A program made the translations under genes and the position numbers. Shown in pieces: positions 2,503 to 10,915 of a stretch of 42,122 bases of DNA. Below the pieces are notes generated by a model, which did not search any database, was not told the origin of the DNA, and worked only from the letters and a program-made list of their open reading frames with translations. The stretch lies in assembly GCA_012518535.1 (NCBI GenBank), contig JAAYRX010000179.1:1-42122 (forward strand), given 5' to 3'. Every line of letters starts with the position of its first letter. Position 1 is the first letter of the stretch. This stretch comes from Clostridiales bacterium (GTDB taxonomy: Bacteria > Bacillota > Clostridia > Caldicoprobacterales > UBA3941).

Positions 2503-2745
2503 AAATGATTGATAGAAGCTATGAAAGGGAGTAGTAAACCAGATCCAGTCCTTAAGCGAGAAGGGGAAGGTGTGAGCCCTTCGGATATGGTTGGTTGAAG
2601 CCGTCCTGGAGCCCTGCAGCTGAATCTTTAGGCTGCGGCGGTGATAAACCGTTATAAATACTGAGTGATCGAATATACATTCGATAACAAGGGTGGTACC
2701 GCGTACAACTACGTCCCTTCTGTTAGAAGGGGCTTTTTTATTATA
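2503..2745 (+). promoter_or_regulatory. T-box riboswitch leader of alaS
   Basis: The leader contains the T-box antiterminator signature GGGTGGTACCGCG (2691-2703), whose bulge pairs with the acceptor end of uncharged tRNA. Upstream are stem-I elements AGTAGTAAACC and GCGAGAAGGGGAAGGTGTGAG, and a GCAGC/GGCTGC helix. A terminator hairpin follows (CCCTTCT/AGAAGGG with a T run, 2715-2740). Uncharged tRNA-Ala is expected to stabilise the antiterminator and allow alaS transcription. A GCC triplet at 2600-2602 is a possible alanine specifier codon, but I could not fold stem I well enough to be sure. Confidence 0.93.
2715..2740 (+). terminator. T-box-controlled attenuator of alaS
   Basis: CCCTTCT (2715-2721) pairs with AGAAGGG (2725-2731) across a 3-nt loop, followed by GC and a run of six T. 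It is mutually exclusive with the T-box antiterminator and ends about 24 nt before the alaS start. Confidence 0.85.
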
Positions 2746-2763
2746 TTGTCAGGAGGATTAAAG

Positions 2764-5409
2764 ATGGAAAAAATGGGATTAAACCAGTTGCGTCATGCTT
2801 TCTTAAAGTTTTTTGAAGAAAAGGATCATCTGATCATGCCTAGTGCTTCGTTGGTTCCCAAATCAGATAAGAGTCTACTGTTGATTAATTCGGGTATGGC
2901 CCCACTAAAAGCCTACTTTACCGGACAGGAAACACCTCCTAGTCCAAGAGTGACCACATGTCAAAAATGTATTAGAACCCCAGATATAGATATAGTAGGA
3001 AAAACTGCCAGGCATGGTACGTTTTTCGAAATGCTTGGTAATTTCTCTTTTGGCGACTATTTTAAAAGAGAGGCAATTGTCTGGGCATGGGAATTTGTAA
3101 CTGAAGTACTAAAGCTTCCACTGGAGAGACTCTGGGTTACCATATATCTGGAAGACGATGAAGCATATGAGATATGGACTGATGTAGTAGGTCTAGACCC
3201 CCAACGGATTGTTCGTATGGGTAAGGAAGATAACTTTTGGGAGATTGGTGTCGGTCCATGTGGTCCATGTTCGGAAATATTCTTCGATAGGGGTAAGGAG
3301 CACGGATGTGGCAGCGATAATTGTGCAATAGGATGCGATTGCGATAGGTTTGTTGAATTTTGGAATCTGGTATTTACACAATTTGATAGAGATGAGGAAG
3401 GTAATTATCATCCCTTGGAACATCCCAGCATTGATACGGGAATGGGATTGGAGAGAATCGCTGCTATTATGCAGGGTGTAAATTCTCTATTCGAAGTGGA
3501 TACCATAAAAAATATTATGAAGGAAGCCAGCCGGATATCTGGAATTAGGTATGGTGATAATGCCAACACGGATATATCCCTAAGAGTTATAACAGACCAT
3601 ATAAGAGGAACCGTTTTTATGATCTCCGATGGAATTATCCCGTCCAATGAAGGAAGGGGATATGTCCTTAGGAGAATTCTGAGGAGAGCTGCCAGACATG
3701 GAAAACTGATTGGCATCAAGAACATGTTTTTATCGGATCTGGCAAAGATAGTTATTCGGGAGTCGGGAGACGCTTATCCAGAGTTAAGGGAAAAACAGCA
3801 GTATATTCTGAAGGTTATTCAAGTAGAGGAGGAAAGATTTAACGAGACCATAGACCAGGGTTTAATCATATTAAAGGGCTATATTGATAATATCAAAAAG
3901 GCTAAATCAAAAGTCCTGGATGGCAAAAGTGCCTTTAGGCTATATGATACCTATGGCTTTCCCTTGGATTTAACCAGGGAAATTTTGGAGGAAGAAGGCT
4001 TTGATGTTGATGAAGCTGGATTCAATGCAGAAATGAAGGATCAGCGAGAGCGGGCCAGATCAGCAAGGGAAGAGACGAACTATATGGGTGAAGAAGATCC
4101 GATCTATGGGCTTTTGAAACCGGATGAAAAGACTGACTTCGTTGGTTACCATACTCTTAATATCCGAAGTAGGGTGATCGGTTTAATTAAAGATAATCAA
4201 CGTGTTGACTCTGCTAATCAAGGTGACCATGTACTGGTGATTTTGGATAAAACTCCCTTTTACGCAGAAAGTGGCGGACAGATAGGTGATAGGGGACTGC
4301 TGCAAACCGACGAAGTCACGGTGGAGATCGAAGATGTTAATATGTTACACGGAGATCATATAGTCCATAAGGGGAAAGTGCTTTATGGAACAATTAGGAC
4401 AAATCAAGAATTAGAAGCAAAGGTTCTAACAGAGGAAAGGTTATCAACAGCCCGTAACCACTCTGCTACCCACCTATTGCACAAAGCTCTTAAGGAAGTT
4501 TTGGGAGACCATGTGGAACAGGCTGGGTCTCTGGTTGCACCCACGAGATTAAGGTTTGATTTTTCTCATTTTGCTCCATTAACTGACGAGGAGATTGATA
4601 GGGTAGAGGGAATAGTAAACAAGAAAATAATGGAAGCTTTGTCTATTGATATTATCGAGACCACATATGATGATGCCAGGAGTTTAGGAGCTGTAGCACT
4701 ATTCGGTGAAAAATATGGAGACATCGTAAGGGTAGTAAAGATGGGGGATTATAGCATCGAACTCTGTGGTGGGACTCATCTTTCCAATACTGGGCAGGCA
4801 GGCTTATTCAAGATCATAAGCGAAACTGGAATAGCTGCCGGCGTAAGAAGGATCGAAGCGGTTACTGGATCCGGAGCTATACAATGGGTAAAACAGCAAA
4901 ACGAGCTAATAAATCAGGTGTCAGAAGTTCTAAAAACCAATCCTACAGGAGTTATACAAAAGGCCAAGGGTATAATGGAGCAGGTTAAGGAATATGAACA
5001 TGAGATACAAATTCTAAAAAGACAACTAATGCAGGGAACTGTAGACATGTTAATGTCCGATAGGAAGTCTATAAATGGTATTCAGTTTATAACTGGCAAT
5101 GTTGAACGACAGGATATGAATACTCTGAGGGATACTGCAGATATTCTAAGAAATAAGCTGAAGTCCGGAGTCGTTGTGTTGGCATCCGAATATCAGGGCA
5201 AGGTCAATATGATAGCTGCTGCAACTAAGGATATGATTGGTAAGGGGATTCATTCAGGAAACCTCATAAGAGAGGTAGCTAAAGTCACAGGTGGGGGCGG
5301 CGGCGGACGACCTGATATGGCTCAGGCAGGAGGCAAGGATCCATTAAAGATATCACAAGCACTGGATAAGGTAGAAGTTATACTTGCACATCAGTTGGAT
5401 AATCAATAA
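2764..5409 (+). CDS. alaS: Alanine--tRNA ligase
   Basis: The protein has 881 residues, normal AlaRS length. It charges tRNA-Ala and edits Ser/Gly mischarging. Domains in order are the class II catalytic core (from MGLNQLRHAFLKFFEEKDH, with MLGNFSFGDYF and GMGLERIA), the tRNA-recognition region, the editing domain with zinc motif HSATH (566-570) and CGGTH (668-672), and the C-Ala domain with its glycine-rich loop from residue 843 and RPDMAQAGG. ATG 2764 follows AGGAGG at 2750. The frame stays open back into the T-box terminator, but that extension is leader RNA. Expression should follow tRNA-Ala charging through the T-box. A strong hairpin lies 51 nt after the stop. Confidence 0.98.
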   Translation: MEKMGLNQLRHAFLKFFEEKDHLIMPSASLVPKSDKSLLLINSGMAPLKAYFTGQETPPSPRVTTCQKCIRTPDIDIVGKTARHGTFFEMLGNFSFGDYFKREAIVWAWEFVTEVLKLPLERLWVTIYLEDDEAYEIWTDVVGLDPQRIVRMGKEDNFWEIGVGPCGPCSEIFFDRGKEHGCGSDNCAIGCDCDRFVEFWNLVFTQFDRDEEGNYHPLEHPSIDTGMGLERIAAIMQGVNSLFEVDTIKNIMKEASRISGIRYGDNANTDISLRVITDHIRGTVFMISDGIIPSNEGRGYVLRRILRRAARHGKLIGIKNMFLSDLAKIVIRESGDAYPELREKQQYILKVIQVEEERFNETIDQGLIILKGYIDNIKKAKSKVLDGKSAFRLYDTYGFPLDLTREILEEEGFDVDEAGFNAEMKDQRERARSAREETNYMGEEDPIYGLLKPDEKTDFVGYHTLNIRSRVIGLIKDNQRVDSANQGDHVLVILDKTPFYAESGGQIGDRGLLQTDEVTVEIEDVNMLHGDHIVHKGKVLYGTIRTNQELEAKVLTEERLSTARNHSATHLLHKALKEVLGDHVEQAGSLVAPTRLRFDFSHFAPLTDEEIDRVEGIVNKKIMEALSIDIIETTYDDARSLGAVALFGEKYGDIVRVVKMGDYSIELCGGTHLSNTGQAGLFKIISETGIAAGVRRIEAVTGSGAIQWVKQQNELINQVSEVLKTNPTGVIQKAKGIMEQVKEYEHEIQILKRQLMQGTVDMLMSDRKSINGIQFITGNVERQDMNTLRDTADILRNKLKSGVVVLASEYQGKVNMIAAATKDMIGKGIHSGNLIREVAKVTGGGGGGRPDMAQAGGKDPLKISQALDKVEVILAHQLDNQ

Positions 5410-5460
5410 CCGGATAGATCTCTATTGAGCTTTACATGCAATGCCGCAATATTACTAACT

Positions 5461-5495
5461 GGGGGCATGTTCAATGCCCCCGTAAATTGTTTTAA
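5461..5495 (+). terminator. Terminator after alaS
   Basis: GGGGGCAT (5461-5468) and ATGCCCCC (5474-5481) form an 8-bp perfect GC-rich stem with a 5-nt loop. The tail GTAAATTGTTTTAAT is U-rich but interrupted. The position fits termination of alaS. Confidence 0.7.
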
Positions 5496-5514
5496 TAGTA
5501 CTCGTAATCAATAC

Positions 5515-5543
5515 TTGTTATATATGATGACTATAGATATACT
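5515..5543 (+). promoter_or_regulatory. Promoter of the ireB-AKR-ruvX unit
   Basis: TTGTTA (5515-5520) and TATACT (5538-5543) are separated by 17 nt and lie about 78 nt before the ireB start, just after the alaS terminator. Confidence 0.6.
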
Positions 5544-5620
5544 AGAAGTCAGAACATAGTAAAGCATTTTAAGTAATGGGTGTAGTCTATCTTGTATTAC
5601 ATAGGAGGTGGGTATGTTTT

Positions 5621-7921: not shown

Positions 7922-8335
7922 TTGGCTAAAGGATGGTTTTTTTCTAATATAACTCCTTTAGAGCGAGCCCTGGATGTGACTTGGAAAAGACATGAAGTAA
8001 TTTCCCACAATATATCAAATGCGGACACACCAGGTTACAAGAAAAAAAATGTGGTTTTTGAGGAAGAATTATTATCTGCTCTTGCCGGCTATGGAATGAA
8101 GGGCAGACAAACCAGGGAAAAACATCTTAGAATAGGGGATGGCCCCATAAATGAAATTGAGGCAAAAATAACCGAAGTAGATTCCACTAAAATGCGAGTA
8201 GACGATAACAATGTAGATATAGAAACCGAAATGTCAAACCTGGCTACTAATACCATTATGCATCATGCTTTGGTTCAAAAATTAAATGGGGAGTTTTCGA
8301 GAATTAGGACCATAATCAACGAGGGGAGGCGTTAA
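7922..8335 (+). CDS. flgB: Flagellar basal-body rod protein FlgB
   Basis: A 137-residue proximal-rod subunit, exported through the flagellar type III apparatus. The N-terminal rod signature VISHNISNADTPGYKKK and the C-terminal helix (EMSNLATNTIMHHALVQKLNGEFSRIRTII) are both present, so the gene is full length. TTG 7922 is chosen because GGGGGTGA lies 4 nt upstream and the product then begins at the usual place. In-frame TTG 7874 and ATG 7904 lie upstream but lack this spacing. It is the first structural gene of the operon and is 2 nt from flgC. Confidence 0.95.
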   Translation: MAKGWFFSNITPLERALDVTWKRHEVISHNISNADTPGYKKKNVVFEEELLSALAGYGMKGRQTREKHLRIGDGPINEIEAKITEVDSTKMRVDDNNVDIETEMSNLATNTIMHHALVQKLNGEFSRIRTIINEGRR

Positions 8336-8337
8336 AG

Positions 8338-8775
8338 GTGATAAAATCAATGCAAATTAGTGCTTCTGGTATGGCGGTTCAGCGGCTCAGAATGGATATT
8401 ATAGCACAGAATATAGCTAACATAAATACAACACGGACAGCCAACGGGGGCCCTTACCGTCGCAGACTGGTAACAGTACAGGAAAACATAGACTCAAAGC
8501 CTTTTTCCCAATTTCTCTCTGAAAGAAGCAATGCTTTTACTGGTCAGGGAATAAAAGCCACGGGGATAGTTGAAGATCCTACCCCGTTAAAGACGATTTA
8601 TGATCCTGGGCATCCGGATGCTGATGAGCAGGGCTATGTTCAAATGCCTAATGTAGATAACCTGAAAGAGATGGTGGATATGATATCTGCTACACGCTCC
8701 TTTGAAGCCAATGTTACTGCCTTTAATGCGGCAAAGAGCATGGCAATTAAAGGGTTAGAGATAGGTAAGAGATAA
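8338..8775 (+). CDS. flgC: Flagellar basal-body rod protein FlgC
   Basis: A 145-residue rod protein starting at GTG 8338 behind GGGGAGG. It contains the axial-protein signature SASGMAVQRLRMDIIAQNIAN and the C-terminal helix (VDMISATRSFEANVTAFNAAK) shared by rod and hook proteins. FlgB, FlgC and FliE together form the proximal rod joined to the MS ring. Length and order are as in other Firmicutes. Confidence 0.96.
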   Translation: MIKSMQISASGMAVQRLRMDIIAQNIANINTTRTANGGPYRRRLVTVQENIDSKPFSQFLSERSNAFTGQGIKATGIVEDPTPLKTIYDPGHPDADEQGYVQMPNVDNLKEMVDMISATRSFEANVTAFNAAKSMAIKGLEIGKR

Positions 8776-8789
8776 AAGGAGGCTTTTAG

Positions 8790-9083
8790 GTGAGAATTGA
8801 TAATTTGTATTCGAATGCTATTAACCTAACAGGACCTACCAGGACCAAGTCCACAGCCAATACAGGTAATTTTAAAGACATATTTGAAAACGTTGTTCAA
8901 GAAGTCAAAGATACTAGGGAAAAGGATATTCTTAATAATACACAAATGGCTGCGGGGCAAATAGACAACATAGATAAGATAATGATCGACATGGAAAAGG
9001 CTGATATCGCCCTCCAGTTTACTTTACAAGTTAGAAACAAAGTATTGGATGCCTATCAGGAAATAATGAGGATGCAGATATAG
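8790..9083 (+). CDS. fliE: Flagellar hook-basal body complex protein FliE
   Basis: A 97-residue protein, the adaptor between the MS ring and the rod. GTG 8790 follows AAGGAGG. The C-terminal half matches FliE, with IDKIMIDMEKADIALQFTLQVRNKVLDAYQEIMRMQI, including the characteristic M-Q-I end. It is followed by an unusual gap of about 300 nt before fliF, whereas these genes usually sit close together. Confidence 0.95.
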   Translation: MRIDNLYSNAINLTGPTRTKSTANTGNFKDIFENVVQEVKDTREKDILNNTQMAAGQIDNIDKIMIDMEKADIALQFTLQVRNKVLDAYQEIMRMQI

Positions 9084-9130
9084 CATAAACTGGTGTAGGG
9101 ATATTGGATAGACTACTTAAGTGAGTAATT

Positions 9131-9211
9131 ATGAAAACAGTAGTCCGAAAGATGAGGTATGATCTTATATTAATTATTGTTTTACTGCTGTATCTTTTAC
9201 TTACTACTTGA
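9131..9211 (+). CDS. Possible 26-residue membrane peptide in the fliE-fliF gap
   Basis: ATG 9131 opens a 26-codon frame with a basic N-terminus (MKTVVRKMRYD) followed by an uninterrupted hydrophobic run (LILIIVLLLYLLL). This is the layout of a single-span membrane micropeptide. The ribosome binding site is weak (TAAGTGAG). It ends 3 nt before a potential RNA structure. I do not recognise a family; it could be chance in an AT-rich gap. Confidence 0.35.
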   Translation: MKTVVRKMRYDLILIIVLLLYLLLTT

Positions 9212-9213
9212 AA

Positions 9214-9325
9214 GGTCATTTCCATTAGATGCTCCCCCGTCCCGGAACAAGTCTGAGGTTGGGACATGACCTACACAGAATCTGGATATGTGATGAGCCG
9301 GCTTTTGATCTAATGCTCTTTTTAT
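9214..9325 (+). ncRNA. Possible structured RNA element in the fliE-fliF gap
   Basis: GGTCAT (9214-9219) pairs with ATGACC (9266-9271), and GTCCC (9239-9243) pairs with GGGAC (9261-9265), so the two helices stack on one side around a 19-nt bulge. CATTAGAT (9223-9230), inside that bulge, is exactly complementary to ATCTAATG (9308-9315), which is followed by CTCTTTTTAT. This could form a pseudoknot, or an alternative helix acting as a terminator upstream of fliF. It resembles no riboswitch class I can name. Confidence 0.35.
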
Positions 9326-9385
9326 AATAAACAATAGATTGGCAGTTGGTGGATAACTTGGTATTTGAGGGGAAGCGGGGATGGG

Positions 9386-10915
9386 ATGTTAAGTGCACTG
9401 GAACCTATTAAACAACAACTGAATAGCTTTTGGGACAATCTGGATAGAAATAAAAGAAGGAATTTTATTTTCATAATTGTTTTGGTTGTGATAACCATAG
9501 TTTTTACCACGGTTTTATTGACCAAAAAGGACTATGTGGTATTGTATTCTGGATTGAATGACAAGGAAGCAGCCGAGATTTATACTAATTTAAAAGAATC
9601 AAATGCCCAGCCTAAAATGGAAGGCACAACGACTATACTTGTCCCAAAGGATAAGGAAGCGGAATTACGGATGCAAATGACCTTGGAAGGCTATCCAAAA
9701 TCTGGTTTTAACTATGATTTGTATCTTCAGGGTAGTAGTTTTGGTCAAACCAATGATGAGATCCAAAAAAGATGGATTATACAGCTTCAGGAACGGTTGG
9801 GTCAATCCATACGCTTTTTAGAAGGAGTGGATGATGCAGTAGTGACTATTGCTATGCCCAAGTCTGACTCCTTTGTTTTAAAAGAGGATGAAATACCCGT
9901 GTCGGCATCTGTGATAATTCTACCGAGACAAGGGTATGAAATAAACAGCCAACAAGCAAAGAGCATTGAGCAACTAATGTCTACCAGTGTTCCCGGGCTG
10001 AATAAGGAGAATATCACTATAATAGATAATAAGATGAATATTCTTAATCTTGAGGGGGAATCAGGAACCCAAATGGTTGCCAACCAGTTTATCATGCAGC
10101 AACAGTTGGAGGATAGAATAAAGGCAGAAATCATGAGTTTGTTGGAACCTGTGTTTGGATATGGTAAGGTAAAGATTGCCGTAAATGCTAAGTTAAACTT
10201 TGACAAAAGAACAACAGAATCAATAACGTTTGAACCCGTTATGGACGATTCGGGCATAATTATTAGCCAGGAATTATTAAAAGAGAAAATGAGCAACGCC
10301 CCTGTTGGTGGAGTACCAGGAGAGACCAATAATACGACCCAATATCCTGAAGCCGGCATGGGAACAGATTCTACATCGCAAAAGGATCACAGAAAAATTA
10401 ACTACGAGGTCAATGAAATAAAAGAGATGATAGAGGAAGAGCAGGGCAAGCTTGAGAACTTGTCCATCGCGGTTGTTATTGATAATGATCAACTTGACCA
10501 ACAAACTATAAACGGTGTGAGAGAATTAGTATCAACAGCCATGGGTACGGATTTGGATAGAGTAGCAGTCCAAAACTGGGGATTTAACACAGATATCCAG
10601 CAGGATCTACTGGACGCTATAAAGGACAGATCAATGGAAAGGCCATGGATAAACTTAAATTGGATTGCAATAATTGTGTCTTCTTTGATCTTAATCACTG
10701 CTATAGCTTTGATTATACGAAAGAGCAAACAACCAATCCCTATTGAAGCTACAGGAGAGTATTTCCCGCAAGAATTAGTAGTCACAGAGGAAGAAAATAT
10801 ACCTGAAATCGCTGTTAGTGAAGAGAATACGATTAAAACACAATTGAATAAGTTTGCGGAAGAACAGCCCGAAGAGATTGCTCAACTATTGAGAAATTGG
10901 TTAAGCGAGGATTAA
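9386..10915 (+). CDS. fliF: Flagellar MS-ring protein FliF
   Basis: A 509-residue protein forming the membrane MS ring, the base on which the C-ring and export gate assemble. It has an N-terminal transmembrane segment (FIFIIVLVVITIVFTTVLLT), ring-building motifs YVVLYSGLNDKEAAEIY and FLEGVDDAVVTIAMPKSDSF, a second membrane segment (IAIIVSSLILITAIALII) near residue 435, and a C-terminal FliG-binding tail ending in PEEIAQLLRNWLSED. ATG 9386 is preferred; the in-frame TTG 9365 would put the purine-rich GAGGGGAAGCGGGG inside the coding region. Confidence 0.96.
   Translation: MLSALEPIKQQLNSFWDNLDRNKRRNFIFIIVLVVITIVFTTVLLTKKDYVVLYSGLNDKEAAEIYTNLKESNAQPKMEGTTTILVPKDKEAELRMQMTLEGYPKSGFNYDLYLQGSSFGQTNDEIQKRWIIQLQERLGQSIRFLEGVDDAVVTIAMPKSDSFVLKEDEIPVSASVIILPRQGYEINSQQAKSIEQLMSTSVPGLNKENITIIDNKMNILNLEGESGTQMVANQFIMQQQLEDRIKAEIMSLLEPVFGYGKVKIAVNAKLNFDKRTTESITFEPVMDDSGIIISQELLKEKMSNAPVGGVPGETNNTTQYPEAGMGTDSTSQKDHRKINYEVNEIKEMIEEEQGKLENLSIAVVIDNDQLDQQTINGVRELVSTAMGTDLDRVAVQNWGFNTDIQQDLLDAIKDRSMERPWINLNWIAIIVSSLILITAIALIIRKSKQPIPIEATGEYFPQELVVTEEENIPEIAVSEENTIKTQLNKFAEEQPEEIAQLLRNWLSED

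Follow-up and report, generated by a model that had tools for sequence, protein, structure and literature searches.

Riboswitch-like and protein-binding cis-regulatory leaders, grouped in Rfam as Cis-reg, are the closest described systems to the candidate RNA that we report here from the gap between fliE and fliF. The window, that is, the whole stretch of DNA that was analysed, comprises 42,122 nucleotides from a Clostridiales bacterium (contig JAAYRX010000179.1), and all coordinates below refer to its plus strand unless stated otherwise. Like the Cis-reg leaders, the fliE-fliF element has a predicted multi-branch domain closed by a helix (P1) beside a gene start, as well as mutually exclusive pairings that, we infer, could reach the ribosome site. 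In contrast to them, it sits within an operon, is confined to one genus and matches no Rfam family. T-box leaders are a second point of comparison. The same genomes have one (2512-2721 in the window) that is likewise structured and conserved and precedes a gene, but it belongs to a known and widespread family (139.5 bits here), whereas the fliE-fliF element gave no match to T-box. Finally, Termite-flg RNA (RF01729) is a flagellar-operon-associated RNA motif located near flagellar genes; the fliE-fliF element differs in that it was not matched in the Rfam scans. None of the 4227 families of Rfam 15 reached the gathering threshold in the gap, and at E values up to 10 we obtained only chance-level matches to CRISPR-DR65 and mir-241 in the genome of this window (G000) and to GNAS-AS1_3 in a relative of the same genus (G001). 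Our literature searches brought up no description of a fliE-fliF RNA; PMC8546590 concerns Salmonella FliE suppressors.

A conserved block in the fliE-fliF gap

Pfam matches identified fliE (8790-9083; PF02049, E 2.1e-26) and the MS-ring gene fliF (9386-10915; PF01514 and PF08345), and confirmed the identity of fliG. The gap is thus limited by the fliE stop (9083) and the fliF ATG (9386), and the 297 nt at 9084-9380 were used in the relatives search and the shuffles. An earlier note on this DNA had described the fliE-fliF junction as normally tight. This holds for three sister genomes of the family (48-54 nt), but not for families f2 (216-245 nt in six genomes) and f3 (about 135-153 nt in three), gap lengths in the order being measured between FliE and FliF matches. 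Both matches were absent from one further family member.

Among 61 related genomes, a significant DNA match to the gap was found only in the genome itself and in G001 (79% identity, E 2.2e-65). Where matches at E ≤ 1 were listed for the other genomes, 52 in all, they were only short (best E 0.0016), and we took them as chance. The search was repeated on the 6 genomes of the family with the same outcome. As a neutral yardstick for the comparison of G000 with G001 we used the fourfold-site identity of ten syntenic genes (493/789 = 62.5%). At 9084-9281 the two genomes agree in 164 of 201 columns (binomial P 3e-9 against 0.625), and within this block in 64 of 72 columns at 9213-9281. Conservation falls to 5/13 columns at 9282-9294, which places its boundary a few bases beyond the 3′ strand of P1, and the stretch at 9308-9350 (24/43 identical) is at or below the fourfold-site level. 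The real signal would then be a candidate element of about 190 nt at 9084-9281, larger than the one proposed in the earlier note and shifted upstream.

The two genomes are also identical in 34 of the 35 columns at 9351-9385, the fliF ribosome-binding region AAGCGGGGATGGGATG. By eye, this region is recognisable in other genomes of f1-f3, and it is G-rich without a classical AGGAGG.

The gap contains indels of 1 and 2 bases between G000 and G001, and its reading as coding sequence is therefore disfavoured. A leader peptide was considered and rejected: a hydrophobic frame of 26 codons runs from about 9131 in G000, preceded by a weak AAGTGAG, and G001 breaks this frame by a shifted start, an early stop and a 2-base deletion, as judged by eye. 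An open reading frame on the minus strand (9031-9267) was set aside as well, having no Pfam match.

To look beyond the genus, two covariance models were searched, R1 in 30 genomes of the order and 398 of the phylum and R2 in 391 of the class, the class and phylum sets being samples searched with stricter filters, so that weak relatives may be missed; in none of these genomes did we find a convincing relative beyond G000 and G001. No further relative was obtained with R1 and R2 in the window plus 18 fliF loci. Only two other matches were obtained, both marginal and taken as chance, one in G021 (E 0.17), which overlaps a 396-aa reading frame, and one in G301 (E 0.02), which lies beside reading frames that look phage-like by eye. 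We also rejected a dispersed repeat, MITE or other mobile element: the element is single copy in its genome, the 12 further matches covering 14-31 nt of the query. The plasmid search gave no match to the element, and the viral contigs held no exact match to its core. The element is an orphan candidate for a structured cis RNA, with neither an Rfam family nor, in the genomes searched, a relative outside the genus.

A common predicted fold closed by P1

When each genome was folded separately, the same three helices were predicted. P1 is a 9-bp closing helix in which the 5′ strand CUG(g)UGUAGG (9090-9099) pairs with CCUACACAG (CCUACA-CAG, 9270-9278, invariant) in the minimum free energy structure of both genomes, with probabilities of 0.99 and 0.92 for the domain alone. 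Through this pairing the constrained block is predicted to form a closed RNA domain as well. The 5′ strands of P2 (UGGA) and P3 (GACU) lie within 9105-9114 and pair in both genomes with UCCA at 9221-9224 and GGUC at 9214-9217, respectively (probability 0.85-0.99, domain alone). The rest of the domain is folded less uniformly. In the long arm at 9120-9205, the P4 (AGUGAGUAA/UUACUUACU) and P5 (CAGUAG/UUACUG) pairs are possible in both genomes, with probabilities of 0.98 and 0.93 in G001 and of 0.23 and 0.00 in G000, where the region prefers another register. The joining strand UUAGAUGCUCCCCC (9225-9238) is identical in the two genomes, unpaired in the G001 fold and partly paired in the G000 fold. 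It is followed by arm B, a hairpin GUCCC(RG)...(UU)GGGAC at 9239-9265 whose GUCCC/GGGAC strands are invariant (probability 0.65 in G001 and 0.01 in G000, domain alone); G001 differs by A-U in place of G-U at 9244 and by an extra C-G pair, both compatible with the hairpin.

The domain folds better than its dinucleotide shuffles, with z -2.07 in G000 (equalled by 9 of 200 shuffles) and -3.18 in G001 (0 of 200). Folded as a consensus, the two sequences reach z -4.6 on the plus strand versus -2.5 to -2.8 on the minus strand. Across 186 control windows from the same alignment the mean was -0.57 (sd 1.22), two being as low as the element, and the known T-box scored -2.4 in the same test. With only two sequences and helix pairs that are nearly all invariant, covariation is essentially absent and provides no proof of the fold. 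Homology, constraint and a common predicted closed fold are what the comparison establishes.

Two further pairings were seen within the domain. UUAGAU at 9225-9230 could form a pseudoknot with GUCUGA at 9251-9256 (6 invariant pairs), and GACUAC at 9111-9116 and GUAGUC at 9140-9145 offer a mutually exclusive pairing.

A possible role in fliF expression

Our preferred reading, which we hold tentatively, is that the gap carries a genus-restricted, structured cis RNA of roughly 190 nt (9084-9281) that sets fliF expression. It would be part of a polycistronic flgB-flgC-fliE-fliF mRNA, begin directly 3′ of the fliE stop and be closed by P1. Acting in cis, it would probably set fliF expression separately from that of fliE. 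Its transcription as RNA, its action in cis and whatever switching, ligand or protein it might involve are inferred.

The most likely route would be translational. With P1 and arm B closed, the fliF ribosome site would be free; with both open, the C-rich CCCGUCCC (9236-9243) could pair with GGGAUGGG (9378-9385) over the fliF start, in the region of the ribosome-binding site and ATG (9376-9388). The 8 pairs are possible in both genomes. When the fliF start is included in the folded RNA, the predicted probability of P1 is 0.00 in G000 (open) and 0.20 in G001 (mostly open). The predictions for the two genomes also differ on the partner of the ribosome site: the CCCGUCCC/GGGAUGGG pairing has a probability of 0.99 in G000 and of 0.01 in G001. 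Compared with shuffled upstream sequence, occlusion of the ribosome site is not unusual, 33 and 85 of 100 shuffles being as occluded or more, and we rejected this sequestration as a statistical signal. We regard the anti-ribosome-site mechanism, taken by itself, as rather doubtful. A switch between mutually exclusive folds is possible in the models, since the P1-closed fold and the hairpin of the earlier note (see below) exclude each other.

A point against our reading is that the element is absent from the sister genomes with fliF and is therefore dispensable for a flagellum. It is a candidate only, from two sequences. If real, it would place an RNA checkpoint right at the junction of the rod adaptor gene fliE with the MS-ring gene fliF. 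A bolder proposal, and a quite improbable one, is that it represents a new, lineage-confined family of intercistronic RNA regulators in uncultured Firmicutes, which would sense a signal and gate FliF, the MS ring at the base of the flagellum, by exchanging the P1-closed fold for the anti-ribosome-site pairing.

Alternative explanations

The main rival to a cis RNA is a DNA control region, in which a promoter with regulator sites would serve fliF and the following genes, the conserved blocks would be protein-binding sites and the inverted repeats operators instead of RNA helices. We consider it unlikely, although it is made more plausible by the different, promoter-like block that the sister families carry in the same gap. 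The gap sequences of f2 (six genomes) and f3 (three genomes) are unrelated to the element. Six of the 30 genomes of the order have the block, AAATAGGTCGAAAGRCYNATT, each a single time and always within the fliE-fliF gap (1 mismatch allowed; 0 matches to the reversed control); its carriers, L109-L114, are the gaps of G006, G009, G022, G018, G012 and G007. By eye, an A/T-rich hexamer resembling TATAAT lies about 20 nt downstream, and block and hexamer are likely a fliF-specific activator site and promoter. The block is absent from the family of the window. G000 itself has a TATAAT at 9323-9328, which also favours a promoter, but no promoter-like site was scored within the gap, and neither the plus-strand fold signal nor a conservation boundary that coincides with P1 would be expected from operators.

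In the gaps of the four g5 genomes (L073-L075 and L077), CAGCAGGGAACA...TGTTACCTGCTG and its variants form a strong inverted repeat that, by eye, lies a few tens of nucleotides ahead of fliF, apparently a second, unrelated structure at this junction. Should the candidate RNA be real, it would show that different lineages have repeatedly placed control elements of different kinds at the fliE-fliF junction.

Alternatively, the domain could serve mainly in mRNA processing or stability, as a structured spacer that lets the fliE and fliF segments decay independently of each other, without switching. A structured position directly 3′ of the fliE stop, the restriction to one genus and the different, unrelated gap sequences of the order's families would all fit. 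The invariant UUAGAUGCUCCCCC and the largely invariant loop of arm B suggest instead sequence-specific recognition over plain stability, and we hold this explanation to be improbable.

The bulged hairpin and the proposed pseudoknot

The earlier note, whose letters and coordinates are all correct, had proposed a pseudoknot or switch centred on a bulged hairpin at 9214-9271. Its outer stem GGTCAT/ATGACC (9214-9219/9266-9271; 7 bp when read as AGGTCAT/ATGACCT) is flush on the 3′ side with the inner stem GTCCC/GGGAC (9239-9243/9261-9265), leaving a 19-nt bulge (9220-9238). Within the bulge, CATTAGAT (9223-9230) is complementary to ATCTAATG (9308-9315), located 78 nt downstream and followed by a T run (9319-9323). 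Of 2000 dinucleotide shuffles of the 297-nt gap, 42% contained one or more perfect 8-nt inverted matches (two were observed), so that, as had been suspected, the match alone could be chance; stems of 6 and 5 bp stacked in the same way occurred in 20%. The whole combination, on which the case had been said to rest, was found in only 0.35% of the shuffles, but it was defined post hoc and its pseudoknot pairing is only partly kept in G001.

Both stems are kept there (7/7 and 5/5 pairs). CATTAGAT is likewise unchanged, but faces ACCTAAAT, with which 5 of 8 pairs form, so that the homologue does not have the two conserved helices of an H-type pseudoknot. The alignment of the gap with a relative, which the note had suggested as a check and for which G001 is the only homologue, thus speaks against the pseudoknot: 3/8 pairs are broken, and the partner lies outside the conserved domain in a neutral-looking stretch. 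Another partner for CATTAGAT in G001, AUUUGAGG, adjoins the fliF ribosome site and forms 7 of 8 pairs using G-U pairs. The hairpin itself is an alternative to P1 and P3, with pairs possible in both genomes and an outer-stem probability of 0.00-0.08. Without downstream sequence, this probability is 0.00 in both, because GGUC is taken up by GACU further upstream and the whole domain is closed by CCUACACAG. The 126-nt region at 9205-9330 folds at shuffle level (z -0.09; 87/200). No terminator-like site, defined as a G+C-rich hairpin with a T run immediately behind it, was found in 8000-10500. Despite the exact 8-nt match in G000, a pseudoknot acting as switch or terminator before fliF is very unlikely; what survives of the proposal is a structured, constrained RNA-like element, backed by conservation and folding in two genomes.

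Slow local divergence combined with a lucky fold is hardly credible given the strength of the constraint (P 3e-9), even with two sequences, two equally low control windows and a whole-gap single-sequence z of just -1.08 and -0.67. Both control windows are non-coding with a terminator-like hairpin and may hold real structures: 5350-5547, after alaS, has a 9-bp hairpin at 5460-5482, and 400-597 a weak one of just 5 bp at 438-450. Upstream, the T-box leader overlaps the predicted start of alaS (ORF 2665-5409, TIGR00344), and the true start is probably further downstream.
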